DNA of 61,115 bases. Origin: Bacteroidia bacterium (GTDB lineage: Bacteria; Bacteroidota; Bacteroidia; Flavobacteriales_D; Sanyastnellaceae). The stretch spans positions 1 to 61,115 of the forward strand of contig JAUICJ010000017.1 of assembly GCA_030427925.1 (NCBI GenBank), read 5' to 3'. Shown here one piece after another: positions 29,368 to 57,195 of the stretch (the stretch's first letter is position 1; every line of letters begins with the position of its first letter). The translations under genes and the position numbers were made by a program. The notes below the pieces were generated by a model that worked only from the letters and a program-made list of their open reading frames with translations, was not told where the DNA came from and did not search any database.

Positions 29368-29401
29368 GAGGCCGGGGACTGGCGCATCAGACCCCGGCCT
29401 C
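29368..29401 (-). terminator. Hairpin spanning the ispG stop codon
   Basis: GAGGCCGGGG pairs with CCCCGGCCTC. One arm lies in the last codons of ispG, and the stop codon is in the loop. No T-run follows, so it may act as an RNA 3'-end stabiliser rather than a terminator. Confidence 0.4.
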
Positions 29402-31327
29402 GTCCTTTACAACGGGTTCAACCCAGTCTCCGTGCGAGCGAATGAGCTCGATGAGCGCATCCACGGCTTCCTCTGCAGGCACGTTGCGTTGGACGACATC
29501 GCGCTCCTTGTACAACGTGATGACACCCGGTCCCGTTCCGACGTATCCGTAGTCGGCATCGGCCATTTCGCCGGGTCCGTTGACGATGCATCCCATGATG
29601 CCGATTTTAATGCCTTTCAGGTGGGAAGTCACGGCGCGGATCTTCGCCGTCGTTTCCTGCAAGTCAAACAGGGTGCGACCGCAACTCGGGCAGCTGATGT
29701 ACTCGGTTTTTGAGATGCGCGTCCGCGTGGCTTGCAGGATGCCGAAGGCCGTTGAGTTGCGCAATTGGAGCGGAATGTGGTCCGCTTCAAGCCAAACCCC
29801 GTCCCCCATCCCATCGAGGAACAGCCCCCCTGCATCGGTGGCCATGTGCAGCTGGAACGTTTCCGGGTCGTGGCCATCAAACTGCCTGCGGATGACGATG
29901 GGCGCGTCGCACCCTGCAGCTTGGAGGGCCAAGGTGGCGGCGCGCAAGTCCGCCATGGCGTGCTCCGAACGGGTCTCCAGCACGACCACGGACGAAGCCA
30001 CTTCGTTCAAGCGCTGTACGAACGCAGGCCGTTCGCAATCCGCACGGCAAGCGCGGACAAAGACCGTCGCGGTCGGCAACAGGTCGGCGCGCTCGAATTC
30101 AGCAGCGTCGAAGAGCGGAATGTGCCGTTCTGCGCCCGTCCAAGCCGCGGCGTCCTGCAAAATGCTCAACGTTCCCGGCAATTCGAACGGGACTTCGCGG
30201 TCGCCCACGTAGACGACGTCGCAAGCGAATTCGTCGAGGTTCCATTTGTCCAGTGGCACGCTGTACCGGTACCCACACCCGAAGAGCGCCGCCGGCGTCA
30301 CCGGCACTTTTCCCAGCGAATGCACCACCACCGGGACCTGCTTTCCGCCGATGTTTCCCACTTCCCGCGTCACGCGACGGGTGTATTCGAACGGATTCCA
30401 CTCCGCGCCATCGACGGGCAGGGCCTGGCCTTTCGCGCGCTGAGCATAGCGTTCTACGAGCTTGCGCGCCACGGGGATTTCCGCCTCGGGAGCCTCCGTA
30501 AGGGAAACCCGCACCGTATCGCCGATGCCGTCTTCGAGCAGCGTCCCGATGCCCACCGCGCTCTTGATGCGCCCGTCTTCGCCATCCCCTGCTTCCGTCA
30601 CCCCGAGGTGAAGCGGATAGTCCATGCCTTCTGCGTCCATGCGCGCCACGAGCAGCCGGTAAGCATGCACCATGACTTGCGGATTCGAAGACTTCATGCT
30701 GATGACCAAATCGTGGTAATCGTGCTCCCGGCAAATCCGCAAGAACTCCAACGCGCTCTCAACCATCCCCTCTGCGGTGTCCCCAAACCGGCTCATGATG
30801 CGGTCGCTCAACGAACCGTGGTTGGTGCCGATGCGCATCGCCCGACCCAATTCCTTGCACTTCAGGACCAGTGGCGTGAACTTGGAACGAATCCGTTCGA
30901 GTTCTGCCGCGTAGGACGCGTCCGTGTATTCGATTTCCTCGAACTTCTTTTTGTCGGCGTAGTTGCCGGGATTGACGCGAATTTTCTCGACGTGATCGGC
31001 CGCGACTTCGGCCGCGTTGGGCGTGAAGTGGATGTCCGCCACGACGGGCACGTCCCCGTAGCCGGCCGCGGCAAGGGCGGCCTTGATTTCGCCGAGTGCT
31101 GCCGCTTCCCGCTTGGAAGGCGCGGTGATGCGCACCAGCTCGCAGCCCGCCTCGATCATGCGCAGCGACTGCGCCACCGTGCCCTCGATGTCGAGGGTGT
31201 CGGTGGTGGTCATGGACTGCAATCGGATGGGGGCGTCTCCTCCTAAGGTGAGGGCACCAATGCGAACGGGGCGCGAGGCGCGGCGTTCGTAATTGAATCG
31301 GTCGGGGCAGTAGTTGGCGTGCTGCAT
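29387..31327 (-). CDS. ispG: HMBPP synthase, long form
   Basis: Converts MEcPP to HMBPP, the penultimate step of the MEP isoprenoid pathway; [4Fe-4S] enzyme. 646 residues: a TIM barrel at the N-terminus (LQSMTTTDT, VADIHF, RVNPGNYAD), a large inserted domain of about 250 residues in the middle, and a C-terminal cluster domain with CPSCGR and GCIVNGPGE. The inserted domain marks the three-domain type of plants, Chlamydia and Bacteroidetes. ATG 31327 follows a -7 box by 4 nt. dxs is in the same window at 55225. Confidence 0.97.
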   Translation of the reverse strand: MQHANYCPDRFNYERRASRPVRIGALTLGGDAPIRLQSMTTTDTLDIEGTVAQSLRMIEAGCELVRITAPSKREAAALGEIKAALAAAGYGDVPVVADIHFTPNAAEVAADHVEKIRVNPGNYADKKKFEEIEYTDASYAAELERIRSKFTPLVLKCKELGRAMRIGTNHGSLSDRIMSRFGDTAEGMVESALEFLRICREHDYHDLVISMKSSNPQVMVHAYRLLVARMDAEGMDYPLHLGVTEAGDGEDGRIKSAVGIGTLLEDGIGDTVRVSLTEAPEAEIPVARKLVERYAQRAKGQALPVDGAEWNPFEYTRRVTREVGNIGGKQVPVVVHSLGKVPVTPAALFGCGYRYSVPLDKWNLDEFACDVVYVGDREVPFELPGTLSILQDAAAWTGAERHIPLFDAAEFERADLLPTATVFVRACRADCERPAFVQRLNEVASSVVVLETRSEHAMADLRAATLALQAAGCDAPIVIRRQFDGHDPETFQLHMATDAGGLFLDGMGDGVWLEADHIPLQLRNSTAFGILQATRTRISKTEYISCPSCGRTLFDLQETTAKIRAVTSHLKGIKIGIMGCIVNGPGEMADADYGYVGTGPGVITLYKERDVVQRNVPAEEAVDALIELIRSHGDWVEPVVKDEAGV

Positions 31328-38429: not shown

Positions 38430-38437
38430 TATCTTCG
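38430..38437 (+). promoter_or_regulatory. -7 box TATCTTCG of ricT
   Basis: TAnnTTCG ending 5 nt before the ATG at 38443. It rules out the GTG at 38437 as the start. Confidence 0.6.
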
Positions 38438-38442
38438 TGCAC

Positions 38443-39789
38443 ATGGCGTGTACGAACTGCAGCAAAGGAGGGGGCACCCCAAGGGGATGCCAGAGCAATG
38501 GAAATTGCGGGGTCGGCGGATGCGGTCCGATGACCGTGTTTGATTGGCTCGAGGGCGTGGCTTTGCCTACGGGCCAAAAGCCATTTGACGTAGTCGAACT
38601 GCGCTTCAAGGCGAACCGAAAGGGATTCTACCGCGTCAGCGACGGCCTCGCGCTTCAGGTCGGGGACGTCGTGGTCGTCAGCGCCGATCCGGGCGAGGAT
38701 GTGGGCGTGGTCAGCCTGCGAGGCGAACTGGTTCGCGCCCAAATGCGCGCCAAGAAGGTCCGCGACGACCACGAAATCAAGAAGGTCCTGCGCAAAGCAA
38801 CCCAGGAAGACATCGATCGGTGGCAACAAGCGCGCATGCGCGAGGACACCACTGTTACGGACGCCCGCGCCATCATCCGGAACCTCAACCTGAACATGAA
38901 GCTCTCGGACGTGGAGTTCCAGGGCGACGGGCGGAAGGCGACGTTCTACTACACCGCAGAGGACCGCGTGGATTTCCGGATCCTGGTGCGCGAACTGGCC
39001 GGTGCCTTCGGCATTCGCGTGGAGATGCGCCAAATCGGAGCCCGTCAAGAAGCCGCGCGCGTCGGCGGCATCGGCGTCTGCGGCCGGGAACTCTGCTGCT
39101 CCAGTTGGCTCACCGACTTCCGCAGCGTTTCCACGCAAGCCGCCCGCTACCAACAGCTTTCCCTCAATCCGCAGAAACTCGCGGGCCAATGCGGCAAACT
39201 CAAGTGCTGCCTGAATTTTGAGTTGGACCAGTACGTGGAAGGGGTGAAGGATTTCCCCAGCCCCAACACGAAACTGAAAGTCGCCAGCGGTCGCGTTGTG
39301 GTGTTCAAAATGGACATCTTCAAGCGCCTCGTGTACCTCTTGCCGCTTGATGAGCAGGGCTCGGGTCCCGTGGCCGTTACGGTGGAGGACATGAAAGAAC
39401 TCATGGCGATGAACGCGCGCGGAGAAGTTCCAGCTTCCCTCAGTGACTTCGCCATTGAAGAGGAGCACAACGAAATCGACGACGTGTACTCCAACGTCGT
39501 GGGGCAGGACAGCCTCAATCGCTTTGACGAAAAGCGCCGCCGTTCGAAGAAGCGCCGCAATCCCAAGGGCAAGCCCAGTGGCAGCAACCGTTCCGGCGGT
39601 GGAGGAGCTGCGCCCAGCGGTGAACGCGCGGCCGCTCCAGCACGTCCGAAAACCGAGGCATCCTCGCCACAAGTTGCGGCCGAGAAGAAAGGTGGAAGCT
39701 CCGGAAATCGCAACCGCAACCGTTCGGGTCGCAACCGCTCAGGCCGAAACCGCGGCGGCAACAAGCCCGCCCAAGCGAAGAGCGAATGA
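38443..39789 (+). CDS. ricT: RicT / PSP1-domain protein
   Basis: 448 residues. In Bacillus RicT (YaaT) joins RicA and RicF in a [4Fe-4S]-containing complex that assists RNase Y; the same role here is inferred. The N-terminus is Cys-rich (six Cys in the first 27 residues). The PSP1 core (about 45-280) has DVVVVSADPGEDVGVV, FYYTAEDRVDFR.LVRELA and the cysteine sites CGRELCCSSWL and QCGKLKCC. The last approximately 85 residues are a basic, Asn/Arg/Gly/Ser-rich tail with repeated NRSGRN. The stop overlaps the gldH start (ATGA). Confidence 0.92.
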   Translation: MACTNCSKGGGTPRGCQSNGNCGVGGCGPMTVFDWLEGVALPTGQKPFDVVELRFKANRKGFYRVSDGLALQVGDVVVVSADPGEDVGVVSLRGELVRAQMRAKKVRDDHEIKKVLRKATQEDIDRWQQARMREDTTVTDARAIIRNLNLNMKLSDVEFQGDGRKATFYYTAEDRVDFRILVRELAGAFGIRVEMRQIGARQEAARVGGIGVCGRELCCSSWLTDFRSVSTQAARYQQLSLNPQKLAGQCGKLKCCLNFELDQYVEGVKDFPSPNTKLKVASGRVVVFKMDIFKRLVYLLPLDEQGSGPVAVTVEDMKELMAMNARGEVPASLSDFAIEEEHNEIDDVYSNVVGQDSLNRFDEKRRRSKKRRNPKGKPSGSNRSGGGGAAPSGERAAAPARPKTEASSPQVAAEKKGGSSGNRNRNRSGRNRSGRNRGGNKPAQAKSE

Positions 39790-40250
39790 GGTCGATTGCG
39801 TGGACGGTGTTCGGGATCCTGGCGTTGGCTGGATGCGGCACGGACGCGCTGCATTCGGATTCACAGGCCATCGACTCCGAAGGCTGGCGAGCCGAAGACG
39901 CGGTGGTGTTTGAATGGGATGTGAACGACACCGTGCAGGCGTGCGATTTCTTCGTCGACCTGCGCCACAACCAAGATTACCCGTTCAGCAACGTGTATTT
40001 GTTCTTGGAGTTCACGTTCCCCAACGGCAAGATTGGGCGCGATACCCTCGGGTGCGATTTGGCCGATGAGCGCGGACAGTGGTACGGCAGCGGATTTGGC
40101 AACCTGGTGGATCACCGCATCGGGTTCCGCGAAGCAACGAGTTTTCCGTTGACGGGACATTATTCGGTGACCATCCAACACGCGATGCGCTTGGACCCGC
40201 TTCCGGGCATCACCGATGTGGGATTCCGGCTCGAGGCCGCTCAGCCCTGA
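39786..40250 (+). CDS. gldH: Gliding motility lipoprotein GldH
   Basis: 154 residues. A lipoprotein signal ends LALAGC with the lipidated Cys at about 17. The mature part has the family pattern: VVFEWDVNDT, FFVDLRHNQDYPFSNVYLFLEF, then TLGCDLADERGQWYGSGFGN and a C-terminal MRLDPLPGITDVGFRLE. GldH is required for gliding or T9SS function in Flavobacterium johnsoniae, and homologues occur in non-gliding Bacteroidetes too. It is translationally coupled to ricT. It converges tail to tail, with a 10-bp overlap, on a small minus-strand gene. Confidence 0.92.
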   Translation: MRSIAWTVFGILALAGCGTDALHSDSQAIDSEGWRAEDAVVFEWDVNDTVQACDFFVDLRHNQDYPFSNVYLFLEFTFPNGKIGRDTLGCDLADERGQWYGSGFGNLVDHRIGFREATSFPLTGHYSVTIQHAMRLDPLPGITDVGFRLEAAQP

Positions 40251-40498
40251 GCGCGCATCCGGTCCCGTGCTTCAAGCGCGAGCGCCCGGATGAGCATGAG
40301 CCACGGGGTTCCATGAAGGGCCGTGTCGAACCAGTCCATCGGACCCATGCCCACGGCTCCGCCTGCAATCCAGCGGATTTTGCCAAAGAGGTGCGGCTCC
40401 GGAACGAAGGGCGCAAGGCCCAACGTCAAGCTCGCAAACACCCACGTTACGATGGAGCGTCCAAGGGGACGCGGAGTCGGCTGTTGCTCGGCGGCCAT
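40241..40498 (-). CDS. Small two-segment membrane protein
   Basis: 85 residues: hydrophobic segments at about 16-32 (VTWVFASLTLGLAPF) and about 41-55, with PEPHLFGKIRWIAGGAVGM and MDWFDTALHGTPWLML. Similar tiny proteins are found beside sterol-desaturase genes in Bacteroidetes, sometimes called RND-like without real evidence. The ATG overlaps the stop of the desaturase-family gene by one base (TGATG), so they are translationally coupled. Function unknown. Confidence 0.7.
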   Translation of the reverse strand: MAAEQQPTPRPLGRSIVTWVFASLTLGLAPFVPEPHLFGKIRWIAGGAVGMGPMDWFDTALHGTPWLMLIRALALEARDRMRAQG

Positions 40499-41391
40499 CA
40501 GTTGCGGTTCGGGATGAAGGGCGCAACGCTTTGGCCTACGAAGCCTTCCGGCATCTGCTCATCCCCGTCGTATCCAAGCACGATGTCACGCCCGTCGTGC
40601 GGGATGTAATCCGTGCCGAAGAGGTAGTCCCACAGGCTCAAGCTGATGCCGAAGTTGACTCCGTACTTGTTCTTGCCCAAATCCTTCGCGTGGTGCCAAA
40701 TGTGCATCTTCGGGTTGTTGAACACGTACTTCAGCGGACCGTAATCCCAGCCGAGGTTCGCGTGGTTCAGGTGCCCAATGGCCAAGGCGAACATGTGCAC
40801 AATGAAGAAGTCCTCAATGCCAAATCCGATCATCGCCATCGGCACGTATTGGATGCTCTTGTAGACAATGGTCTCCATCCAGTGGTAGCGCAAATGCGCC
40901 GCAAAGCCCATCTCTTTCACGCTGTGGTGCACCTTGTGGAAGTTCCAAAGGAAGGGCACGCGGTGCAGCAGGCGGTGCGTCCACCACGACAGGAAGTCCA
41001 CCAGGATGAACATGACGAACAGCTGCGTGATGTGCGACCACGAACTGATTTCGAGGGCCACGAGGTTGGTGATGCCAAAGGTGTTGGCTAGGAAATCGTT
41101 GAACAGGTTCACCCCCATGTTGCTCAGGCCGTTGTAACCCACGAGCGAAAAGAGGAAGAAGTTGAAGAACATGTAGAACACGTCGAGCCAAAAATCCTTC
41201 CGCAACGGGGCTTGGCCCTTGCGCCACGGCAGCGCCAATTCGATGCCCCAAACCACGAGGGACAACAGAATGAGCGCATAGAGGTAATTTTCGTACCACG
41301 GCTTGTAATCATACGACCAAAGCAACTCGCTCCACAGGTAGTTGCCATACTCGCTGAATCCGCGAAGGAAGGTGTCCAAGTACTGGTTCAT
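40498..41391 (-). CDS. Sterol desaturase / fatty acid hydroxylase family protein
   Basis: 297 residues, integral membrane di-iron enzyme. The eight-histidine signature is seen as HRLLH (about 138), HKVHH (about 151) and HIWHH (about 230), with an additional His in RYHWME. Four to five membrane segments surround them. The family hydroxylates or desaturates lipids; the lipid here cannot be named. The start is ATG 41391 (MNQYLDTFLRGF). It probably shares a transcript with the rhodanese gene upstream and the small membrane protein downstream. Confidence 0.9.
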   Translation of the reverse strand: MNQYLDTFLRGFSEYGNYLWSELLWSYDYKPWYENYLYALILLSLVVWGIELALPWRKGQAPLRKDFWLDVFYMFFNFFLFSLVGYNGLSNMGVNLFNDFLANTFGITNLVALEISSWSHITQLFVMFILVDFLSWWTHRLLHRVPFLWNFHKVHHSVKEMGFAAHLRYHWMETIVYKSIQYVPMAMIGFGIEDFFIVHMFALAIGHLNHANLGWDYGPLKYVFNNPKMHIWHHAKDLGKNKYGVNFGISLSLWDYLFGTDYIPHDGRDIVLGYDGDEQMPEGFVGQSVAPFIPNRN

Positions 41392-41400
41392 GGCAGGAGG

Positions 41401-41868
41401 TTATTGAATTTCAACGGGTTCTGTGTGAACGACTGCGTTTCCAGCACCTTGCCAAGCGCGGATGCCACCGAGCAGGTTGTACACTTCGGGGTGGCCAGCG
41501 GCGTTCAGCGCTTGCATCGCCTTAGCACTCCGACCGCCGGACGCGCAGTAGACCAACACCGGCCGATCCTTGGGCAGGGCTGCGAGCTGCTGGTTGAAGT
41601 CGGCGGAGGCGAACGGGATGTAGGCAGCGCCTTCAAGGTGACCTTCGGCCCATTCTCCGTCGGACCGAACATCGAGCAACAACGCGCCTTCGCGGGCCAT
41701 CAAGGTTTGGAACTCCGCCACCTTCACATCCTTCGCCACGGCCCCCTGAACGGCGGCAGACTGGGCAGTGGGTTCAGTGGGGGCGTTGCTGCAAGCGGCC
41801 AATCCCGTTGCAGCGGTGAGCACGAGCGCAATCCAAAGGCTCGTTTTCAAGGTGGACAAAGGTTTCAT
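41401..41868 (-). CDS. Rhodanese-domain lipoprotein
   Basis: 155 residues. The signal peptide ends in a lipobox (TGLAAC, Cys at about 26). A single rhodanese domain (about 48-145) has LLLDVRSDGEWAEGHLEGA and the active-site loop YCASGGRSAKA with the catalytic Cys. It is predicted to be a periplasm-facing sulfurtransferase or sulfide-handling protein; the substrate is unknown. A TAACTTGC box lies about 30 nt upstream (41899-41906). Confidence 0.88.
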   Translation of the reverse strand: MKPLSTLKTSLWIALVLTAATGLAACSNAPTEPTAQSAAVQGAVAKDVKVAEFQTLMAREGALLLDVRSDGEWAEGHLEGAAYIPFASADFNQQLAALPKDRPVLVYCASGGRSAKAMQALNAAGHPEVYNLLGGIRAWQGAGNAVVHTEPVEIQ

Positions 41869-42001: not shown

Positions 42002-42015
42002 CTTGATTGTACGCC

Positions 42016-42771
42016 ATGAATGTGAATCCCGCTTTTCGTTTGGTCCCTTTGCTGCTGCTGCTTGCGCAGGTGCTGACGTTGCCTGCCCAAACCGCGCGCG
42101 AGTACCTCGAACGCGCCGAAGAGGCCATGCGCGGCTCGGAGCTGCGCGCGGAGATGACCATGACGATCGTCCGCCCCACGTGGGAGCGCGAAATGTCCCT
42201 CACGTCGTGGGCGCTTGGTGCCGATCGGGCCATGATGGTCATCACCGCCCCAGCCCGGGACGCGGGCACGGTCTTCTTGAAGCGCGACCGCGAGGTGTGG
42301 AACTGGGTGCCGCAACTGGAGCGCGTCATCAAGATGCCTCCGAGCATGATGGCCCAGTCCTGGATGGGCACCGACTTTTCCAACGACGACCTCGTGCGCG
42401 AGTCCAGCGTGCTCCGCGATTACACCCACGCCATCGTCGGGGAGGAGGACGTCATGGGCCGCCCGTGCGCCGTCATCGAATTGACGCCGCTCCCGGATGC
42501 TCCGGTGGTGTGGGGCAAGGTCCGGATGTGGGTGGACCGCACGGATTTCCTGCAATTGAAGGTCGAGAGTTACGACGAGTTCGGGGATTTGGTCCAAACC
42601 CTCGAGACGCTCGAAATCGGCGAACTGGGTGGTCGAACGCTGCCCGTCGCCGTGCAGGTCGTTCCGGCCGATGAACCCGGCCACCGCACGGAAATGCGCT
42701 ACGACGCCCTCGATTTCAGCCCCGACCTCGACGAAGGCTTCTTCACGGTCTCGCAAATGCAGGACCTCTGA
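42016..42771 (+). CDS. LolA-like outer-membrane lipoprotein-sorting protein
   Basis: 251 residues from ATG 42016; a TTG nine bases earlier is rejected. The signal peptide ends LTLPAQ. The mature part is the LolA-like half-barrel family: MTIVRPTWEREMSLTSWALG, AGTVFLKRDREVWNWVPQLERVIKMPPSMM, WMGTDFSNDDLVRESS. These conserved segments define the sorting-protein family found with FtsX-type transporters. It is predicted to carry a lipid or lipoprotein across the periplasm. It is the first gene of the operon, and its stop overlaps the next start (TGATG). Confidence 0.88.
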   Translation: MNVNPAFRLVPLLLLLAQVLTLPAQTAREYLERAEEAMRGSELRAEMTMTIVRPTWEREMSLTSWALGADRAMMVITAPARDAGTVFLKRDREVWNWVPQLERVIKMPPSMMAQSWMGTDFSNDDLVRESSVLRDYTHAIVGEEDVMGRPCAVIELTPLPDAPVVWGKVRMWVDRTDFLQLKVESYDEFGDLVQTLETLEIGELGGRTLPVAVQVVPADEPGHRTEMRYDALDFSPDLDEGFFTVSQMQDL

Positions 42772-44003
42772 TGAACGCGCTTTGGTGGACGCTCGCGTGG
42801 CGGAACCTGTGGCGGAACAAACGACGCACCGTCATCACCGCGGGCTCAGCCTTCTTCGCGGTCTTCTTCGCCGTGGTCATGCAGTCCGTCACGTACGGGG
42901 TCTTCGGCAAAATGATCGAGGACATGGCGCGGCTTTCGACGGGCCACGTGCAGGTGCAGGATTCCCTGTATTTGGCAGAGCCGACACCGGACCACAGCTT
43001 GGAGTTGGATGCAGCCCGCCTCGCGGAGGCCCAAAAAATCGACGGGGCCATGGCCGTGATGCCGCGCCTTGAAGCCATCGTGTTGGCCTCATCAGGCGAC
43101 CGCAGCACGCCGGTGCAGGTCATCGGCATCGAACCGGCCGCAGAAGATTCCGTGAACCGGTTCACCGAACGCATTCGCAGCGGCGGCCAGTACTTCGGCG
43201 AACCCCGTGCGGACCTCCCGGAAGCGGTGGTCGGTGCGGCGCTCGGCGACCAGTTGGGACTGAGCCCAGGAGACACGCTGTTCACCATCGGCCAGGGCTA
43301 CCACGGGGTGCCCGCGTACGGCCGGTTCCGGGTAGCGGGCCTCCTCGAACTCGGCAACCCCGAACTGAGCAAGCGCCTCGTCTACGTTCAGCTCGCCGAT
43401 GCCCAGCACGCCTTTCGCATGGAGGGACGGGTAACGGGCGTCGTGTGCATGGCCGATCCCGCCGCTGACCTCGAGGACGTTCAAGCGGAACTCGCCGCCC
43501 TGTTTCCGGACCAAGCGGCGCGCCTGTGGAGCGATTTGATGCCGGATTTGGAACAAACCCTCGAAGGCAAGCTGGCGGGCAACTACATCATCCTGTTCAT
43601 TTTATACCTGATCATCGGGTTTGGTCTGTTCTCTACGGTGCTCATGATGATGAGTGAACGCCAAAAGGAATTCGGCATCCTGATTTCGGTCGGAACCGGG
43701 CGCCGCACCCTCGCTGCGATGGTGTACCTCGAGGTGGCATTGCTCGGGCTGCTCGGCGTGGGGCTGGGCAGCCTCGCGGTTTGGCCGTTCCTCGAGTACT
43801 TCGATGCGAATCCGGTTCAGCTGCGCGGCGACTTGCGCGAGCTCCATGAGCAATATGGATTGGAGCCCATCCTGCCGGTGATGATCGAGCCGTTCATTTT
43901 CTTCAACCAGGCCGCCGTGGTGCTGGGCATGGCGTTGACTGTGGGGTTGTACCCGTTGCGCGTGCTGAAGCGGTTGGACATCCTCAAAGCTTCCCGGTCA
44001 TGA
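42771..44003 (+). CDS. FtsX/LolCE-type ABC permease, first
   Basis: 410 residues: one N-terminal membrane segment after WRNLWRNKRRT, a periplasmic MacB-like domain (about 45-255), then three segments (about 260-285, 305-340 and 370-395) in the FtsX arrangement. The motif MSERQKEFGILISVGTGRRTL follows the second segment, as usual for the family. It overlaps the following permease gene by ATGA. It is a subunit of a heterodimeric transporter. Confidence 0.92.
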   Translation: MNALWWTLAWRNLWRNKRRTVITAGSAFFAVFFAVVMQSVTYGVFGKMIEDMARLSTGHVQVQDSLYLAEPTPDHSLELDAARLAEAQKIDGAMAVMPRLEAIVLASSGDRSTPVQVIGIEPAAEDSVNRFTERIRSGGQYFGEPRADLPEAVVGAALGDQLGLSPGDTLFTIGQGYHGVPAYGRFRVAGLLELGNPELSKRLVYVQLADAQHAFRMEGRVTGVVCMADPAADLEDVQAELAALFPDQAARLWSDLMPDLEQTLEGKLAGNYIILFILYLIIGFGLFSTVLMMMSERQKEFGILISVGTGRRTLAAMVYLEVALLGLLGVGLGSLAVWPFLEYFDANPVQLRGDLRELHEQYGLEPILPVMIEPFIFFNQAAVVLGMALTVGLYPLRVLKRLDILKASRS

Positions 44004-45217
44004 TGTTGCTCTCGATTGCTTACCGGAACATTTGGCGGAATCCCGTGCGGAGTTTGGTGGTCATCGGTTCGATGGTGCTGGGGATTTGGGGCGGCACGTT
44101 CATCGTGGGCTTCTTTTCGGGCATGACCCAGCAGCAGCTGGAGGACATGCTGCGCCAGGAGGTTTCCCATGTCCAAATCCACGGGCAAGGCTTCCTCGAT
44201 CAGTTCGACCCCACGGACACGTTGCACGCCACGGGGGCGCTCACGGCGGCTCTTGCCCTGGACGAGCGGGTGGAGTCGTTCAGTGCCCGACTCGTGGGGG
44301 TGGGCCTGATTGCGAGCGCGCGCCTGACCACAGGCGGGATGGTCGTCGGCATCGACGCGGACGCGGAGTCGGCGGTGACGCAGCTGGGCGATCGGGTGGT
44401 CGAGGGCGATTTGTTCGCGACGGACCGGCCGAACCAGGTCGTCATCGGGACGCGGCTCGCGGAGCGGTTGCACGTGGGGGTGAAGAATAAAATCGTGGTG
44501 ACGTTGCCCAATCGCGAAGGGGAAATGGTGTCGACGGCGTTGCGCGTGGCCGGGATTTACCGGGAGCGGGCGGCCGCGAAGGCGGGGGCGCGGATTTACA
44601 TGCCGGCGCGGGATTTGGCGGGGTTGATGGGGGTGGGGGCGGCGCGCCACGAGGTGGCGGTGTTCGCTCGGGATCTCTCGGTGGTGCAGGGGTTGGCGGC
44701 GGATTACGCGGGGCAGTTCGGGGGGGATTTGGTCCGCCCATGGAACGCGATTTCCCCGGAACTGCGGCTCATCTCCGAATCGTACGACCAATATGTGCTC
44801 ATCATCATCGCGATCATCCTGCTCGCCCTGCTGTTCGGCATCGTGAACACCATGCTCATGGCGGTGCTGGAGCGGACGCGGGAACTGGGCGTGCTCATGG
44901 CGGTGGGGCTGACGCGGGTGAAGGTGTTCTGGATGATCTTGCTGGAGACGGTGATGATCGGTTCCATCGGCGGGCCGCTGGGGCTGCTGGTGGCGTGGGG
45001 GACCATCGAGTGGACGGGGGTGCACGGCATCGACTTGTCGCGGTATGCGGAGAGTTTGGAGGCCTATGGTTTGTCCACCCACGTGTATCCGACCTTGGAC
45101 ACCGGCGGCTACGTGGAAATCCTCATCATGGTGGTGGCGGCTTCGCTCATCGCTGCCTTGTTCCCGGCCTTGCACGCCATTCGCTTGAAACCCATGGACG
45201 CGATCCGTTCTCAATGA
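44000..45217 (+). CDS. FtsX/LolCE-type ABC permease, second
   Basis: 405 residues, same topology as the preceding permease: YRNIWRNPVRSL at the start, a MacB-like periplasmic domain, and LERTRELGVLMAVGLTR after the second membrane segment. The two differ enough to be separate subunits, so a heterodimer is likely. 10 bp separate it from the ATPase gene. Confidence 0.92.
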   Translation: MMLLSIAYRNIWRNPVRSLVVIGSMVLGIWGGTFIVGFFSGMTQQQLEDMLRQEVSHVQIHGQGFLDQFDPTDTLHATGALTAALALDERVESFSARLVGVGLIASARLTTGGMVVGIDADAESAVTQLGDRVVEGDLFATDRPNQVVIGTRLAERLHVGVKNKIVVTLPNREGEMVSTALRVAGIYRERAAAKAGARIYMPARDLAGLMGVGAARHEVAVFARDLSVVQGLAADYAGQFGGDLVRPWNAISPELRLISESYDQYVLIIIAIILLALLFGIVNTMLMAVLERTRELGVLMAVGLTRVKVFWMILLETVMIGSIGGPLGLLVAWGTIEWTGVHGIDLSRYAESLEAYGLSTHVYPTLDTGGYVEILIMVVAASLIAALFPALHAIRLKPMDAIRSQ

Positions 45218-45227
45218 TTTCCTGGAC

Positions 45228-45923
45228 ATGAATTCGAATCAACAACCGGTCATCACGACCCGCGGGATTTCCCGCACTTACCAGCAAGGCCCGGTGGACG
45301 TGCGGGCGGTGGACGGCGTGGATTTGTCCATCCTTCCAGGGGAGTTCACGGCGCTTGTGGGGCCTTCGGGGAGTGGGAAGACGACCTTGCTGAACCTGAT
45401 CGGGGGGCTGGATCGCCCGACCGCAGGCGAGGTCGTGATCGATGGGACGCGATTGAACGACCTCGATGAGAACGCGTTGATCCAATTCCGCTTGCACCAC
45501 ATCGGGTTTGTCTTTCAAGCGTACAACCTGATCCCGGTGCTGTCGGCGGCGGAAAACATCGAGTTCATCATGTTGCTCCAAAAGGCTTCCGCGAAGGAGC
45601 GCCGAACGCGGACCCAGCAATTGCTGAAGGATGTGGGCTTGGAAAAGCTGGGGCACGCGCGCCCCACGCAGCTGTCGGGAGGGCAGCAACAGCGCGTGGC
45701 GGTGGCGCGGGCGTTGGCGAGCAAGCCGGCGTTCGTGTTGGCCGACGAGCCGACAGCGAACTTGGACAGCCACACGGCGGAGAGCTTGTTGGATGTGATG
45801 GAGCAGTTGAACCGGGACGAAGGCATGACCTTCGTCTTTTCGACGCACGATCCGCGGGTGATTGCGCGCGCTCGCCGGGTGGTCACCTTGGTGGACGGCC
45901 GCATCGACTCGGACGAAGCATGA
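45228..45923 (+). CDS. LolD/MacB-type ABC transporter ATPase
   Basis: 231 residues. Walker A GPSGSGKT at about 46, Q-loop FVFQAYNLIPVLSA, signature LSGGQQQRVAVARAL, Walker B FVLADEPTANLDS, switch His in STHDPRV. These exact forms are diagnostic of the LolD/MacB/FtsE branch that powers mechanotransmission rather than classical import. It is the fourth gene of the operon and overlaps the next by ATGA. Confidence 0.94.
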   Translation: MNSNQQPVITTRGISRTYQQGPVDVRAVDGVDLSILPGEFTALVGPSGSGKTTLLNLIGGLDRPTAGEVVIDGTRLNDLDENALIQFRLHHIGFVFQAYNLIPVLSAAENIEFIMLLQKASAKERRTRTQQLLKDVGLEKLGHARPTQLSGGQQQRVAVARALASKPAFVLADEPTANLDSHTAESLLDVMEQLNRDEGMTFVFSTHDPRVIARARRVVTLVDGRIDSDEA

Positions 45924-47110
45924 TGCGCACGGGGTTTCTGATTGTGCTGTTGGGCTTTGCATCGTTCGTGCAGGCCCAGCAATTGGAGTTGAGCGGTTTT
46001 TGGAAGGCGATGCCGTCGCGGACCACCATTCCATTCCTCTTGGACGAACCGATGTCACAGGCGTATTTGCACCAGCGCACGAACCTGAAGTGGCGGAGTG
46101 CGGACCGGGCGTGGACCGTTCGGTTGGAGGCGCGCACGCGGGTGTTTTTCGGAAGCCAAGTGGAACAAACCGCGGGGTTTTTCGAAGGCCTGTCCGCTGA
46201 TGCAGGTGTGTGGGACGGGAGTTGGAACTGGTGGGAGGCGGCCGACGAGAGGGGGGTGGGGAACACGCTCATCGACCGGGCCTTGGTGTCGTATCGGCGG
46301 AATCGCCTTCGCGTGGACCTCGGACGGCAGCGCATCAACTGGGGAAGGCACGCGGTTTGGAATCCGAACGACGTTTTCAATGCGTACAACTTTTTCGATT
46401 TCGATTACGCGGAGCGACCGGGGACGGATGCGCTTCGGGTGCGATGGAGCGTGGGAGAAAACGGGATGAACGAAGTGGATGTGGCTGCTCGCCCGGGCAC
46501 GCCGGAGCGCGCGCCGCTGGTGGCGGGGTTGTTCCGCTGGAATGTGCGCGGGGTCGATGGCCAAATCCTGTCCGCCTACCTCGAAGACACCTACGCAGTG
46601 GGCGGCGCCTTCAGCGCGGGCTGGGGGCCGTTGAGCCTCAAGGCCGAAGCCACGCATTTCGGAGCGGCTGCGGCGTGGGGCGATTCGGCGATTTGGAGCG
46701 GAACGATCGGCCTCGATGCGACGTGGGGTGAAGGGGCCTTCGCGCAGTTGGCGGTCTTGCGCACGCCCGGACTGGGCGGCTCGGCCTTGCTCGGTCTCTC
46801 CGCGGGAGGCCAAACCACGCAGCAGCCCTGGTCCCTCCTCCCATTCACCCGCACGTACATGACGCAACTGACCTTGCCTGCCACCGAGCGACTCCGGATG
46901 GGCGGGGCGCTGCTTTGGGCCCCCAACGACGACGTCCTCATCGCGATGCCGAGCGTGGTCTTCGACGCGGCACGGAACCTTACGGCGTCCCTCATTGTTC
47001 AACATGTGAGGGCGCGTCCGCCATTTGGACCGGACGCTTCGATGGAGACGCTCACGACGGCGGCTTTTCTCAGTTTGCAGTGGAACTTTCGCGTCCGCAA
47101 CCTCTTGTGA
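45920..47110 (+). CDS. Predicted outer-membrane beta-barrel protein
   Basis: 396 residues: signal peptide MMRTGFLIVLLGFASFVQAQ, then alternating amphipathic strands. RLRVDLGRQRINWGRHAVWNPNDVFNAYNFFDFDYAERPGTDALRVR is a conserved landmark of an alginate-export / DUF1302-like barrel family, and the C-terminus ends in aromatic-rich LSLQWNFRVRNLL. Together with the four upstream genes this suggests an outer-membrane component of the same exporter. The barrel assignment is from pattern alone. No known substrate. Confidence 0.72.
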   Translation: MMRTGFLIVLLGFASFVQAQQLELSGFWKAMPSRTTIPFLLDEPMSQAYLHQRTNLKWRSADRAWTVRLEARTRVFFGSQVEQTAGFFEGLSADAGVWDGSWNWWEAADERGVGNTLIDRALVSYRRNRLRVDLGRQRINWGRHAVWNPNDVFNAYNFFDFDYAERPGTDALRVRWSVGENGMNEVDVAARPGTPERAPLVAGLFRWNVRGVDGQILSAYLEDTYAVGGAFSAGWGPLSLKAEATHFGAAAAWGDSAIWSGTIGLDATWGEGAFAQLAVLRTPGLGGSALLGLSAGGQTTQQPWSLLPFTRTYMTQLTLPATERLRMGGALLWAPNDDVLIAMPSVVFDAARNLTASLIVQHVRARPPFGPDASMETLTTAAFLSLQWNFRVRNLL

Positions 47111-47163: not shown

Positions 47164-49257
47164 ATGTTATACCGCCTCCTCAGCGCTTCCCTGTTCAGCG
47201 CATGTGCCTTCGGCTCCCTTTTCGCCCAAAGCACGGATTCCATTCACTATTGTGGTTCATCGGAAGCGCTGGAACGCTTGTTGCAAGAGCGGCCGGAAAC
47301 GCGGTTGCACTTGGAGCGCGATGAGGCCCGGTTGGAGGCCGAAACCCAAGCGTTCAGCGATGTGAATCGGGACGAACTGGTCGTCATTCCTGTGGTCTTT
47401 CACATCATCCACGACAACGGGGTAGAGAACATCTCGGACGAGCAAGTGTACAGTGCACTGGAAGTTGCCAACCGGGATTTCCGATTGCTCAATACGGACG
47501 CGAACACCATCGTCGATGAGTTTGCGGGCATTGCTTCGGACATCGAGATCGAGTTTCGTTTGGCACAACGGGACCCGGATGGGAATTGCCATTCGGGCAT
47601 CAATCGGATTGTCAGTGATTTGACCTATGACGGTTCGAATGCGGTGAAGGACCTCATTCAGTGGCCGCGCAACCAATACATGAACGTGTGGGTCGTCAAT
47701 TACGCCAACGGAGCCGCGGGCTACACGTACCTGCCGGGCTCGGTTTCAGGCTTCCAAAACGCAGACATCGACGGCATCGTGCTCAAGCACGACTACACCG
47801 GCGACATCGGCACGAGCAACACGTACCGGTCGCGCACGCTGACCCACGAGGCAGGTCACTGGATGAACTTGCGGCACACCTGGGGCAATGGGAATGAACC
47901 CGGTTTGGACAGCAACTGCGATCAAGACGACAACGTGGACGACACGCCGCTCACGATGGGGTGGGTCACGTGCAACTTGAACGGTTCCTCGTGCAATTCC
48001 TTGGATAACGTCCAGAACTACATGGATTACAGCTACTGCGGCCGCATGTTCACGGAAGGCCAGCGGACGCGGATGCGGGCGGCGATGTACAGCAACACCG
48101 CCCAGCGGAACCAGCTTTGGACACCGGGCAACCTTGCTGCAACGGGAACCGATGGGGTGGACGTCTTGTGTTCCGTGACCTTCGATGCGGATCGCCGGAC
48201 GATTTGTGCAGGAGACAGCGTGCAGTTCACGGATTTGAGCTTCCACGGCGTGAATGCGTGGGAATGGGATTTCGGCGACGGGAGCCCCGTGAGCACGGAG
48301 GAGAGTCCGTGGCACACTTTCGAGCAGCCCGGGTTTTACACGGTGAAGTTGACGGCGAGCAACAACAACGAAACGGCAGAAGGCAGCCAAACCGATTTCA
48401 TCCATGTTTTGGAGGACAATGCCATGGACCTGCCCTTGACGGAAGGGTTTGAATCGGGGTCGGTGCCCGCGGCGGATTGGTTTGTGTTGGACGAAACCGC
48501 CGATGGGGTCACGTGGTCCATCACGTCAACCACGGCACTCACGGGTGATTATTGCCTGAAAATGAATAACTTCGCGGTTCAATCGGCGCAAGCCACGGAC
48601 CAATTGATTTCCTCGACCATGGACATGAGCGGGGCGACGGAAATCCACATCACTTACAGCTGGGCGTACGCCTACCGCGGCCAAGATCCGGATGAGGACG
48701 ACACGGACGACCGGCTCAAAGTCTACGCGTCGGCGGATTGTGGCAAAACCTGGTCCTTGCGGCGCATGCACCGCGGGTTCACGGACCTGCCTTCGGCGGA
48801 TCCCCATCCGTTTCCGTTCGTCCCAGTCGGTCCTGAGGAGTGGAGCACGTATACGTTGGTGTTGCCGTATGAGCAGTTTTTGACGGAGAATTTCCGGTTG
48901 ATGTTTGAATTCGAGAGCCGGTTGGGCAACAATTTGTACCTCGATGACATCAACATCCAAGCGGTGGGGGTCAATGACGTCGCGGACTGGACGGAAGCGG
49001 GTCAATTGCCGTTGCAGCTGTTCCCGAATCCCACAGCGGGCACCACGACGTGCACGTTCCGAACCGTGAAGGAGCACGATGCGTTGGTGGTGGTGCGGGA
49101 TTTGGTCGGTCGGGAAGTGGCGCGGCCTCTAGACGGCCGGTTGCCAATGGGAAACCAACAACTGGAACTGGACGTCCAAGGATGGGCGCCAGGGGCTTAC
49201 TTGGTCTCGGTGGTTCTCGATGGGGTGCCGAGCACGGCTCGCTTGCTCGTCGAGTGA
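47164..49257 (+). CDS. Secreted M43-type metalloprotease with PKD and T9SS tail
   Basis: 697 residues from ATG 47164 (MLYRLLSASLFSACAFGSLFAQ). The catalytic domain has HEAGHWMNLRH at about 228-238, a Met-turn in NYMDYSYC, and paired Cys; this is the pappalysin (M43) class, which often processes or degrades extracellular proteins. A PKD domain is seen at about 345-420 (WEWDFGDGSP, FEQPGFYTVKLTA). A jelly-roll-like segment follows (about 430-610), then LFPNPTAG and the terminal sorting domain. No transcription terminator separates it from the converging gene. Confidence 0.9.
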   Translation: MLYRLLSASLFSACAFGSLFAQSTDSIHYCGSSEALERLLQERPETRLHLERDEARLEAETQAFSDVNRDELVVIPVVFHIIHDNGVENISDEQVYSALEVANRDFRLLNTDANTIVDEFAGIASDIEIEFRLAQRDPDGNCHSGINRIVSDLTYDGSNAVKDLIQWPRNQYMNVWVVNYANGAAGYTYLPGSVSGFQNADIDGIVLKHDYTGDIGTSNTYRSRTLTHEAGHWMNLRHTWGNGNEPGLDSNCDQDDNVDDTPLTMGWVTCNLNGSSCNSLDNVQNYMDYSYCGRMFTEGQRTRMRAAMYSNTAQRNQLWTPGNLAATGTDGVDVLCSVTFDADRRTICAGDSVQFTDLSFHGVNAWEWDFGDGSPVSTEESPWHTFEQPGFYTVKLTASNNNETAEGSQTDFIHVLEDNAMDLPLTEGFESGSVPAADWFVLDETADGVTWSITSTTALTGDYCLKMNNFAVQSAQATDQLISSTMDMSGATEIHITYSWAYAYRGQDPDEDDTDDRLKVYASADCGKTWSLRRMHRGFTDLPSADPHPFPFVPVGPEEWSTYTLVLPYEQFLTENFRLMFEFESRLGNNLYLDDINIQAVGVNDVADWTEAGQLPLQLFPNPTAGTTTCTFRTVKEHDALVVVRDLVGREVARPLDGRLPMGNQQLELDVQGWAPGAYLVSVVLDGVPSTARLLVE

Positions 49258-55224: not shown

Positions 55225-57195
55225 TCAGGCGGTGCGCATGCTGGTGGCTGCGGCTTCGGCCATCAGGGCTTCGGCGGTGGCCGCGATGCTTGTTCGGTCG
55301 TAGCCGCACTCCTTGTAGAGTTGGGCTTGCGAACCGTGCTCGACGTAAGCGTCCGGCATGCCGAGCCGCTTTACGCGGGCGCTGTAGCCCGCTTCCGCCA
55401 TGAATTCCGTCACCGCGCTACCGAAGCCGCCGGTCACGGTGCCGTCCTCCACGGTGATGACGCGTTTGAACTTGCCGAAGACCTCGTGGAGCATCACTTC
55501 GTCGAGCGGCTTCACGAACCGCATGTCGTAGTGGGCGGCGTTGATGCCTTGTTCGGCAAGGGCTTCAACCGCTGCGGCCGCTTCCGTGCCGATGGCGCCG
55601 ATGCTGAGGATGGCCACGTCCGTGCCCGCTTTGAGCCGGCGGCCTTGACCGACTGGGATTTCGGCGAACGGTTGCCGCCAGTTGACGATCGAGCCATTGC
55701 CACGCGGGTAGCGGATGGAGTAGGGGCCGGATTGTTTTTGGCTTGCAGAGTACATCATGTTGCGCAGCTCCACCTCGTCCATCGGCGCAGCCACCACCAT
55801 GCCCGGCACGCAGCGCATGTAGGCCAAATCGTACGCGCCATGGTGCGTAGGGCCATCCGCTCCCGCAATCCCTCCCCGATCGAGGCAGAAGACCACGTGC
55901 AGGTTTTGCAACGCCACGTCGTGGATGACTTGGTCGTACGCCCGCTGCATGAAGCTCGAGTAGATGTTGCAGAACGGAATCTGCCCACGCGTGGCCATGC
56001 CCGCGCTGAACGTCACGGCGTGTTGCTCGGCAATGCCCACGTCGAATGCACGGTCCGGCATCGCTTCCATCATGAACTTCAGCGAGCAGCCCGTCGGCAT
56101 GGCGGGCGTCACGCCCACGATGCGCCGATCGGTTTCCGCCAACTCGATGATGGTGTGTCCGAAGACGTCTTGGAATTTCGGGGGCGCAGGCTTCGTCGAT
56201 GCGCTCGCAATCACCTCGCCCGTTTCCTTGTTGAACAGCCCCGGCGCGTGCCATTTGGTCGGGCTGCCGGCTTCGGCGGGCGCGTAGCCTTTGCCTTTTT
56301 TCGTCACGCAATGCAGCAGCTTCGGCCCCGGGATGTCCTTCAAGTCACTCAGGATCGAGGCCAAATGTTCCACGTCGTGCCCATCCACCGGCCCAAAGTA
56401 CCGAAAGTTCAGGGACTCGAACAGGTTGCTTTGCTTCAGCATGGCCGACTTGACGGCGTGCTCGACCTTTTGGGCGATGGCCTGCGCGTTGGGACCGAAT
56501 TTGCTGATCCGCCCGAGTAGGTGCCACACCTCGTCCTTGACTTTGTTGTAGGTGTGCGACGTGGTGACGTCCGTCAAATATTCCTTGAGCGCGCCCACGT
56601 TGGGGTCGATGCTCATGCAGTTGTCGTTGAGGATCACCAGCATGTTGGTGTCCTCGACGCCGCCGTGATTGAGCCCTTCGAAGGCCAAACCCGCTGTCAT
56701 CGCACCATCCCCAATCACCGCCACATGTTGTCGTTCCCGGTTGCCCTCCAGCCGGCTTCCCACCGCCATGCCCAGCGCTGCCGAGATGCTCGTGCTGCTG
56801 TGCCCCACACCGAACGTGTCGTACGGGCTTTCGCTCCGTTTGGGGAATCCGGAAATGCCTTTGTATTGGCGGTTCGTGTGAAACACGTCGCGTCGTCCCG
56901 TCAGGATCTTGTGTCCGTAGGCTTGGTGTCCTACGTCCCACACGATTTGGTCTTCCGGGGTGTTGAAGACGTAGTGAAGCGCCACGGTCAATTCCACCAC
57001 GCCGAGGCTCGCGCCGAAATGGCCGCCTTTTTCGGACACCACGTCGACGATGAAGTCGCGAAGTTCATTGGCAATTTGCGGCAGGTCTTCGGTTTTGAAG
57101 AGCGTGCGCAGGTCCGCAGGTTCGTGGATGCGGGAAAGGAGGGGGCCGGCAGCGTATGCGTTCATGAGAAGGTGACGGGGTTCATTGCCCGACAT
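55225..57195 (-). CDS. dxs: 1-deoxy-D-xylulose-5-phosphate synthase
   Basis: First step of the MEP isoprenoid pathway; thiamine diphosphate enzyme. Seen are GHFGASLGVVELTVALHYVF, WDVGHQAYGHKILTGR, the ThDP motif GDGAMTAGLAFEGLNH...LNDN, the AEQHAVTFSAG segment and DRGGIAGADGPTHHGAYD. From ATG 57195 it has 656 residues; a -7 box lies 4 nt before it. ATG 57165 (MNAYAAGPL) fits the usual N-terminus better and would leave a 34-nt leader, so the first ten residues are uncertain. Confidence 0.96.
   Translation of the reverse strand: MSGNEPRHLLMNAYAAGPLLSRIHEPADLRTLFKTEDLPQIANELRDFIVDVVSEKGGHFGASLGVVELTVALHYVFNTPEDQIVWDVGHQAYGHKILTGRRDVFHTNRQYKGISGFPKRSESPYDTFGVGHSSTSISAALGMAVGSRLEGNRERQHVAVIGDGAMTAGLAFEGLNHGGVEDTNMLVILNDNCMSIDPNVGALKEYLTDVTTSHTYNKVKDEVWHLLGRISKFGPNAQAIAQKVEHAVKSAMLKQSNLFESLNFRYFGPVDGHDVEHLASILSDLKDIPGPKLLHCVTKKGKGYAPAEAGSPTKWHAPGLFNKETGEVIASASTKPAPPKFQDVFGHTIIELAETDRRIVGVTPAMPTGCSLKFMMEAMPDRAFDVGIAEQHAVTFSAGMATRGQIPFCNIYSSFMQRAYDQVIHDVALQNLHVVFCLDRGGIAGADGPTHHGAYDLAYMRCVPGMVVAAPMDEVELRNMMYSASQKQSGPYSIRYPRGNGSIVNWRQPFAEIPVGQGRRLKAGTDVAILSIGAIGTEAAAAVEALAEQGINAAHYDMRFVKPLDEVMLHEVFGKFKRVITVEDGTVTGGFGSAVTEFMAEAGYSARVKRLGMPDAYVEHGSQAQLYKECGYDRTSIAATAEALMAEAAATSMRTA

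Follow-up and report, generated by a model that had tools for sequence, protein, structure and literature searches.

Several described systems bring together components like those considered here. AmeABCD of Castellaniella defragrans includes a DUF1302 barrel, a DUF1329 periplasmic protein and a resistance-nodulation-division (RND) pump of the HAE3 type, and its deletion lowers monoterpene tolerance (PMC6394551). The Pseudomonas putida DUF1302/DUF1329 pair PP_0765/PP_0766, whose members were modelled touching each other, is required for growth on Tween 20 (PMC10866462). In Borrelia, a Lol-like ATP-binding cassette (ABC) transporter, a LolA-like protein and an outer-membrane barrel were proposed in one cluster, BBJ23-BBJ29, and according to the authors this seven-gene cluster is found only in Borrelia (PMC13078400). 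The Porphyromonas gingivalis genes PG1175-PG1181 encode a TetR regulator, an MMPL protein, a lipoprotein-sorting protein, a hypothetical protein and two ABC proteins (PMC10434189, PMC10470040). PG1181-PG1175 were up 13.4- to 136.2-fold in low iron (PMC10434189), and a set of TetR, MMPL, lipoprotein-sorting and hypothetical genes, which we take to be PG1175-PG1181 genes, tops the hemin-repressed genes (PMC10470040). Here we analyzed a stretch of 61,115 nucleotides from a Bacteroidia bacterium of the Sanyastnellaceae (contig JAUICJ010000017.1 of assembly GCA_030427925.1; the whole stretch is hereafter called the window), in which five adjoining genes at 42016-47110 encode a LolA-like protein, two FtsX-type permeases, a LolD-type ATPase and a predicted outer-membrane barrel. 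We lean towards reading this set as an ABC-driven exporter of the shuttle type that is often inducible and whose cargo is a free lipid or a small hydrophobic or amphiphilic molecule.

The set is related to known transporters of lipoproteins and of terpenes. No description of an ABC-driven five-gene set in Bacteroidota was found in the open-licence literature, as judged by titles and the openings of abstracts of the matches listed, and the set is not discussed in the accessible parts of the papers on Lol of Flavobacterium johnsoniae and P. gingivalis (PMC11885536, PMC13103446).

All five genes lie on the forward strand. The first (42016-42771, 251 amino acids) encodes the LolA-like protein of the PF17131 family, a predicted periplasmic shuttle; the ATG at 42016 was taken as its start, three codons downstream of the TTG at 42007 chosen by the open reading frame (ORF) caller. 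It is followed by FtsX1 (42771-44003, 410 amino acids), a permease of the LolC/LolE type, FtsX2 (44000-45217, 405 amino acids, PF02687 and PF12704), a second LolC/E-type permease, a LolD/MacB-type ATPase (45228-45923, 231 amino acids) and a predicted outer-membrane beta-barrel with a signal peptide and an OprD/AlgE-like fold (45920-47110, 396 amino acids). Direct inspection of the sequence revealed a TGATG junction between the LolA-like gene and FtsX1 (TGA at 42769-42771, ATG at 42771). ATGA overlaps join FtsX1 to FtsX2 at 44000 and the ATPase gene to the barrel gene at 45920, and 10 bases, between 45217 and 45228, separate FtsX2 from the ATPase gene. These overlaps suggest that the five genes are translated together. 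An earlier note on this DNA had described a five-gene operon with overlapping ends at this place, and the ORFs and junctions read as it stated; its remark that the genes supply every layer of the envelope likewise agrees with what is encoded, namely an ATPase, two permeases, a LolA-like carrier and a predicted barrel.

To follow the set in relatives, 296 genomes of the phylum were searched with the barrel and with FtsX1. The barrel was found in 69 of them, including the genome of the window, and the FtsX1 matches in the same genomes spanned a wide range of scores. All 65 genomes with FtsX1 at E ≤ 1e-38 held the barrel, as did all 66 at 1e-28 and 67 of the 68 at 2e-26, the last threshold leaving one genome, G120, with FtsX1 and no barrel (genomes and loci carry our own G and L numbers). 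Four genomes (G005, G087, G223 and G254) held the barrel without FtsX1 at E ≤ 1e-38.

Further, 137 loci were examined for gene order: 57 stretches around barrel matches from the 68 other genomes, and 80 loci from a motif-based scan. The latter are the best of at least 576 confirmed barrel relatives in the genome collection, and hence biased to close relatives, the other four genes having been checked at a part of the loci of these relatives; their records bear Bacteroidota-type names, plus one 'Chlorobi' and one plain 'bacterium' metagenome-assembled genome. When the count was restricted to the 115 loci in which the barrel is preceded by at least 4.5 kb of sequence (control loci L095-L097 from the genome of the window excluded), the order LolA-FtsX1-FtsX2-LolD-barrel on one strand was kept in 103, that is, in 45 of the 53 loci from the 296-genome search and 58 of the 62 from the motif scan. 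Loci with the five genes in order include L144 of Flavobacterium limicola and L127 of Maribacter polysiphoniae. The largest gap between neighboring frames did not exceed 100 bases in 72 of these 103 loci, 300 in 83 and 1000 in 99, with 3081 as the worst case. The remaining 12 loci included four with all five genes in another recorded order, two of which (L056 and L081) seem to be artefacts of best-ORF selection, two RND loci, and six incomplete ones. Three of the latter show the barrel alone (L068, L103 and L125), and the L068 genome has FtsX1 on another contig. Among the 22 loci with shorter upstream sequence, 4 were complete and 18 cut or incomplete. The joint occurrence of barrel and partners that the earlier note had proposed to test is therefore borne out by the FtsX1 count and the conserved order, which together rule out the barrel as a chance neighbor. 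Two loci stand out individually. At L053 (G223:C11) the operon looks decayed, with both permeases in fragments, no LolD, and long ORFs for the LolA-like protein and the barrel; at L056 (G119:C101) the operon is partly duplicated, a second FtsX1-FtsX2 pair lying directly behind the barrel.

A profile of the barrel protein had no match among the PDB sequences at E ≤ 10. The AlphaFold2 model built from 71 sequences had a mean predicted local distance difference test score (pLDDT) of 92.4 and a predicted template modelling score (pTM) of 0.86, and 18 strands were counted from its secondary structure. Its best structural relatives were OprD/Occ porins (Z 22.5-24.1 over ~300 residues, at 5-10% identity), among them OpdQ (3t24_B; Z 24.1, 3.1 Å over 300 residues). 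Chitoporin (Z 23.9) and MOMP (Z 23.5) were practically level with OprD, AlgE (7acg) reached Z 22.5 with 3.7 Å over 304 residues, and Foldseek put the same porin families first. No Omp85 chain was among the best 50 structural matches listed, an absence that excludes nothing. The last gene thus appears, as the earlier note had predicted, to encode an outer-membrane barrel and not a soluble protein. DUF1302 (PF06980) matched 31 of the 71 family members at E ≤ 1 (best 2e-6); the window barrel, itself one of the 71, was unmatched.

The best-conserved segment of the barrel comprises residues 138-168 (46331-46423, RINWG...WNPND.FN...FDFDY.ERPG). Because short turns alternate with long loops in the model and both termini are on one side, this segment would sit in the third long inter-strand loop; porins often fold a third-loop constriction into the pore. 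Mean conservation of the loop was 0.68 versus 0.43 elsewhere among 58 barrel sequences found by similarity, a set that is not free of bias, the weakest members having matched mainly over the 138-168 region. In this set R53, R120 and R138 are each conserved in 55 of the 58 sequences, R136 in 52, and D213 and E243 in all 58. The loop reached 0.85 in the alignment A3, a value inflated because GRQRINWG and WNPND[LI]FN served as the search motifs by which the members of A3 were retrieved; R72 is present in 71 of 71 sequences of A3, yet in 33 of 58 of the similarity-found set.

The fold of the barrel model bears on the direction of transport. OprD/Occ porins function as uptake channels, and a system of that fold might work inward, with the barrel admitting a hydrophobic nutrient and the LolA-like protein passing it on in a retrograde direction. 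The pump argues otherwise, MacB/LolC-type ABC transporters being export machines or mechanotransmitters. Growth on Tween 20 that needs PP_0765/PP_0766 would suit uptake (PMC10866462), whereas AmeABCD acts in tolerance (PMC6394551), and we consider an uptake system very improbable.

FtsX and MacB_PCD domains are present in both permeases (Pfam). The LolC/E permease fold was recognized in the FtsX1 model (pLDDT 88.8), and FtsX2 was placed by its Pfam and NCBIfam domains. The best structural match of FtsX1 was the LolCDE chain 9xro_E (Z 29.2, 6.1 Å over 374 residues), and LolC/E chains head the list, though two LolCDE entries reach only Z 20.1-20.6. A streptococcal MacB-like permease scored Z 23.9, and the heme exporter HrtB (Z 22.4, 7.7 Å over 332 residues) outranked full MacB (Z 18.2-19.1; 5lj7_A 19.1, 7.3 Å over 337 residues). 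When the FtsX1 profile was compared with PDB sequences, LolF (1.6e-29), LolE (8.5e-25), LolC (2.7e-13) and MacB (3.9e-11) were matched. FtsX1 and FtsX2 fall below the LolCE equivalog cut-off of NCBIfam (68 and 89.3 versus 362.45 bits); FtsX2 matches TIGR02212 at 2.5e-25, under a cut-off that is strict here, as another LolC/E-like permease of the genome, on another contig, also fails it with 130.7 bits. The ATPase matched ABC_tran at 1.5e-35 (Pfam) and TIGR02211 at 3.7e-67 with 226.1 bits, under the LolD cut-off of 307.75 (NCBIfam), and its motifs are intact by eye (Walker A GPSGSGKTT, signature LSGGQQQRVA, Walker B region LADEPTANLD). By sequence and model, the pump is Lol-like in build. Such a build favors a lipid-like cargo that is extracted from the membrane, and leaves a lipoprotein cargo under consideration. 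One alternative is that the set forms a second Lol pathway, by which a special lipoprotein would be sorted to the outer membrane or cell surface with the barrel as insertase or flippase: the permease is of the LolC/E/F type by fold and sequence and the carrier is LolA-like, whereas a pore fold of the OprD/AlgE kind is not what one would expect of a protein flippase.

The LolA-like protein matched PF17131 (LolA_like) at E 2.1e-53 (Pfam) and has a signal peptide without a lipobox cysteine, as judged by eye from the translation. No match to LolA proper (PF03548, TIGR00547 and LolA1_Flavo) was obtained at E ≤ 1 in Pfam and NCBIfam. Its solved relatives in the PDB are 9tp6, 3buu, 4z48 and 3bk5, of which 9tp6_A is nearest (2.4e-17) and was deposited as an outer membrane lipoprotein-sorting protein. 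We question this database name, as it implies a cargo for which no evidence was found in the loci studied here. Among 33 LolA-like proteins of the five-gene system, DUF1329 matched 22 at E ≤ 0.1 (best 7.8e-8) and MucB_RseB, a regulator family of LolA fold, matched 28.

The same genome has a LolA1 on another contig (NF053572, 148.9 bits, cut-off 100), and PF17131 exceeds its cut-off only once in this genome. Since LolA1 and the other LolC/E-like permease sit elsewhere, the five-gene set is ruled out as the housekeeping Lol of the genome; the comparison with the genome's own Lol that the earlier note had suggested sets the two apart. The separate housekeeping LolA1 also speaks against a second lipoprotein-sorting pathway. 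The sample held one genome of the same family and one of the same order, and the barrel was missing from both; the five-gene set is patchy and accessory.

PF17131 and barrel genes also occur with other engines. In G087 (L091) and G005 (L092), a TetR gene, a PF17131 gene, a relative of the barrel (E 4.1e-6 and 1.2e-5, respectively, to the window barrel) and an RND pump stand in a row. For the RND pump of L091, the highest scores were those to HpnN (4.8e-102) and BstA (7.4e-80), both under the respective cut-offs; HpnN and BstA are hopanoid and sterol transporters. PF17131 was above its cut-off in 118 of the 296 genomes. Forty further PF17131 loci, chosen by hand from among these places (at least 20 of similar score being left out) and classified with profiles, comprised 14 with an RND pump, 9 with a two-permease ABC transporter and LolD in another arrangement, 9 with a single-permease ABC transporter and LolD, 7 in whose vicinity neither an ABC nor an RND engine was detected (L199-L201, L205, L206, L216 and L217), and 1 in which the present system is truncated at the edge of a contig. 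The figure of 7 of 40 probably understates the subgroup without an engine, as most left-out places fall in its score range. MMPL was detected in the RND of all 14 RND-type loci (Pfam), in two pieces at L195, and L185 was classed as ABC though an AcrB-type RND adjoins (ACR_tran, 868 bits). A barrel-like gene adjoins 27 of the 32 loci with another engine arrangement (11/14 RND, 7/9 two-permease and 9/9 single-permease), several of the barrel assignments in the 40 loci being weak (14-30 bits). When ten of these variant barrels were scanned, those of L178, L184 and L186, all RND, were above the DUF1302 cut-off (3/5 of the RND-type barrels scanned), that of L193 was just below it, and six were uninformative. 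Such pairing with RND pumps counts against a lipoprotein-sorting role.

Three of the single-permease loci adjoin genes of lipid-synthesis type. At L212 and L213, LolD and the permease are separated by a KAS III/chalcone-synthase-like frame; two FabG-like short-chain dehydrogenases precede LolD at L211 and L213, and L211 additionally has a beta-ketoacyl synthase. These genes resemble a fatty-acid or polyketide pathway, and a lipid product is a natural candidate for the cargo at these loci. These genes slightly lower the probability of a lipoprotein cargo and slightly raise that of another alternative, in which a structural or specialized envelope lipid (e.g., a sulfonolipid, hopanoid, polyketide pigment or glycolipid) is delivered to the outer membrane for membrane building, with insertion into the outer leaflet by the barrel. 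The HpnN and BstA scores of the L091 pump, below their cut-offs, point the same way, as does the aryl polyene cluster of E. coli, which combines a LolA-like and a LolB-like protein with an RND (PMC8253772).

The surroundings of the five-gene form weigh differently. In the neighbor clusters listed for the 137 loci, no substrate gene recurred beside the operon, nor did a lipoprotein gene or a biosynthetic gene. TetR was the only frequent cluster, at 46 loci in any position, and the next clusters among those listed reached at most 11. Regulators were counted at those 109 loci whose LolA-like gene is preceded by 700 bases or more (the two RND loci included, L095-L097 excluded). TetR or MarR adjoins 50 of them: 39 have TetR directly upstream on the same strand, 5 have TetR on the opposite strand and 6 have MarR. 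Patchy occurrence, TetR/MarR control and the lack of a recurring biosynthetic gene beside the five-gene form in these loci make delivery of an envelope lipid for membrane building unlikely, its support from the variant loci notwithstanding. The earlier note had suggested that the set moves a lipid or a special lipoprotein to the cell surface. The lipid half of this suggestion appears likely; the lipoprotein half is less so because of the RND-engine pairs, the lipid-synthesis-type genes at the three variant loci, the frequent TetR/MarR regulators and the absence of a recurrent adjoining lipoprotein gene, and we regard a second lipoprotein-sorting pathway as improbable.

Our preferred reading, a shuttle exporter of hydrophobic or amphiphilic small molecules or free lipids, has to be set against several observations that do not favor it. 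No TetR or MarR was detected at 59 of the 109 loci, and none adjoins the operon of the window, where the upstream neighbors were checked with Pfam. The barrel protein has no Pfam family at E ≤ 1 and no NCBIfam match. The LolA-like protein scores 16.5 bits with DUF1329, below the cut-off of 23.1 (Pfam), and exceeds that of MucB_RseB (24.9 versus 22.3 bits). FtsX1 is closer in sequence to LolF, LolE and LolC than to MacB, and LolC/E transport lipoproteins. The lipid-synthesis-type genes adjoin a distant single-permease variant and not the window operon, and we are aware of neither a cargo nor a phenotype of the ABC form. Finally, the dependence on PP_0765/PP_0766 for growth on Tween 20 also fits transport in the opposite direction (PMC10866462).

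If the set is a shuttle exporter, the half-barrel of the LolA-like protein would receive the cargo at the periplasmic domains of the permeases and ferry it across the periplasm. The loaded protein would then dock on the barrel, whose conserved third loop, together with R53, R120, R136 and R138, may gate the release of cargo, be it into the outer membrane or through it. Where TetR or MarR is present, as in many relatives, it would make the exporter ligand-inducible. We infer the outward direction, the hydrophobic cargo, the hand-over from the LolA-like protein to the barrel, and the gating by loop and arginines.

More broadly, and more tentatively, the loci may belong to one unrecognized class of shuttle exporters, in which a LolA-type half-barrel and a dedicated OprD/DUF1302-like barrel form a standard delivery module. 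Its engine could be an ABC transporter with two permeases or with one, or else an RND pump, and hydrophobic cargo would cross both membranes without a continuous tube; we place this idea a little short of even chances. If it is true, the loading of an outer-membrane pore by a LolA-type shuttle would be a general mechanism. The passage of free lipids and hydrophobic molecules through the periplasm and outer membrane is largely an open matter outside a few model systems. The five-gene set is compact and conserved, with one candidate for each step and natural swaps of the engine, so that the question of whether a shuttle loads a barrel becomes directly testable, and the single-permease sets at L211-L213 offer a lead to a lipid cargo.

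Other genes of the window are noted here. The gene directly after it (47164-49257, forward strand), with a likely ATG 53 bases past the barrel stop, encodes an M43 (PAPP-A type) metalloprotease with a PKD domain and a C-terminal sorting domain of the type IX secretion system that scores 26.6 bits, just below the cut-off of 27 (Pfam). Upstream, a divergent pair on the reverse strand (40498-41868) encodes a fatty-acid hydroxylase-family membrane protein and a rhodanese-like lipoprotein; this pair is not among the recurrent neighbors listed for the loci of relatives. Farther upstream on the forward strand (38437-40250), a PSP1-domain gene is followed, with a four-base overlap, by the gene of the gliding-motility lipoprotein GldH (39786-40250). 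GldH and the sorting domain after the operon give the genome a Bacteroidota character. The window also holds two genes of the methylerythritol phosphate pathway on the reverse strand, a long GcpE/IspG (646 amino acids, 29387-31327) and 1-deoxy-D-xylulose 5-phosphate synthase (55225-57195).

Compared with known systems, the window set shares the type VII ABC fold with MacAB-TolC. MacB is a fused ATPase-permease that works with an adaptor and TolC; in the window, ATPase and permeases are separate genes, and none of the five genes encodes an adaptor or TolC. With LolABCDE/LolF the set has in common the permease fold (FtsX1), the ATPase type and the LolA-type carrier, and it differs in having an outer-membrane barrel and no LolB in the operon, in its patchy occurrence, in scores under the LolD and LolCE cut-offs and in its coexistence with the genome's own LolA1. 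To our knowledge, canonical Lol has no barrel, and in this the earlier note agrees with general knowledge. The combination as such is not new, since a Lol-like ABC transporter clustered with a LolA-like protein and an outer-membrane barrel was already proposed for Borrelia BBJ23-BBJ29, which is the nearest published idea (PMC13078400). Unlike the window set, the Borrelia cluster has one homodimeric permease and TPR proteins, and its barrel is of the Omp85 type, where the window barrel has its best structural matches in OprD/Occ, MOMP, chitoporin and AlgE; a TPR gene, lying beside LolD, is shared with it by the single-permease relatives L204, L214 and L215. With P. gingivalis the product names are the same, and the order of PG1181-PG1175 is matched at L184 (TetR, MMPL pump, LolA_like, DUF1302 and two ABC genes), where DUF1302 takes the place of the hypothetical protein, so that gene order would make PG1178 a barrel; the iron and hemin response and the RND engine of PG1175-PG1181 concern the RND form and not the ABC form of the window. 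As in AmeABCD, an outer-membrane barrel, a periplasmic protein of the LolA superfamily and an energized inner-membrane pump are encoded together. AmeABCD differs in its RND (HAE3) engine, where that of the window is ABC, and in a second periplasmic protein, AmeC. The window barrel itself has no DUF1302 match and the LolA-like protein is below the DUF1329 cut-off, while 31 of 71 barrels and 22 of 33 LolA-like proteins match these families at the thresholds given above. The five-gene set would be an ABC-powered counterpart of RND-powered DUF1302/DUF1329 systems such as AmeABCD.

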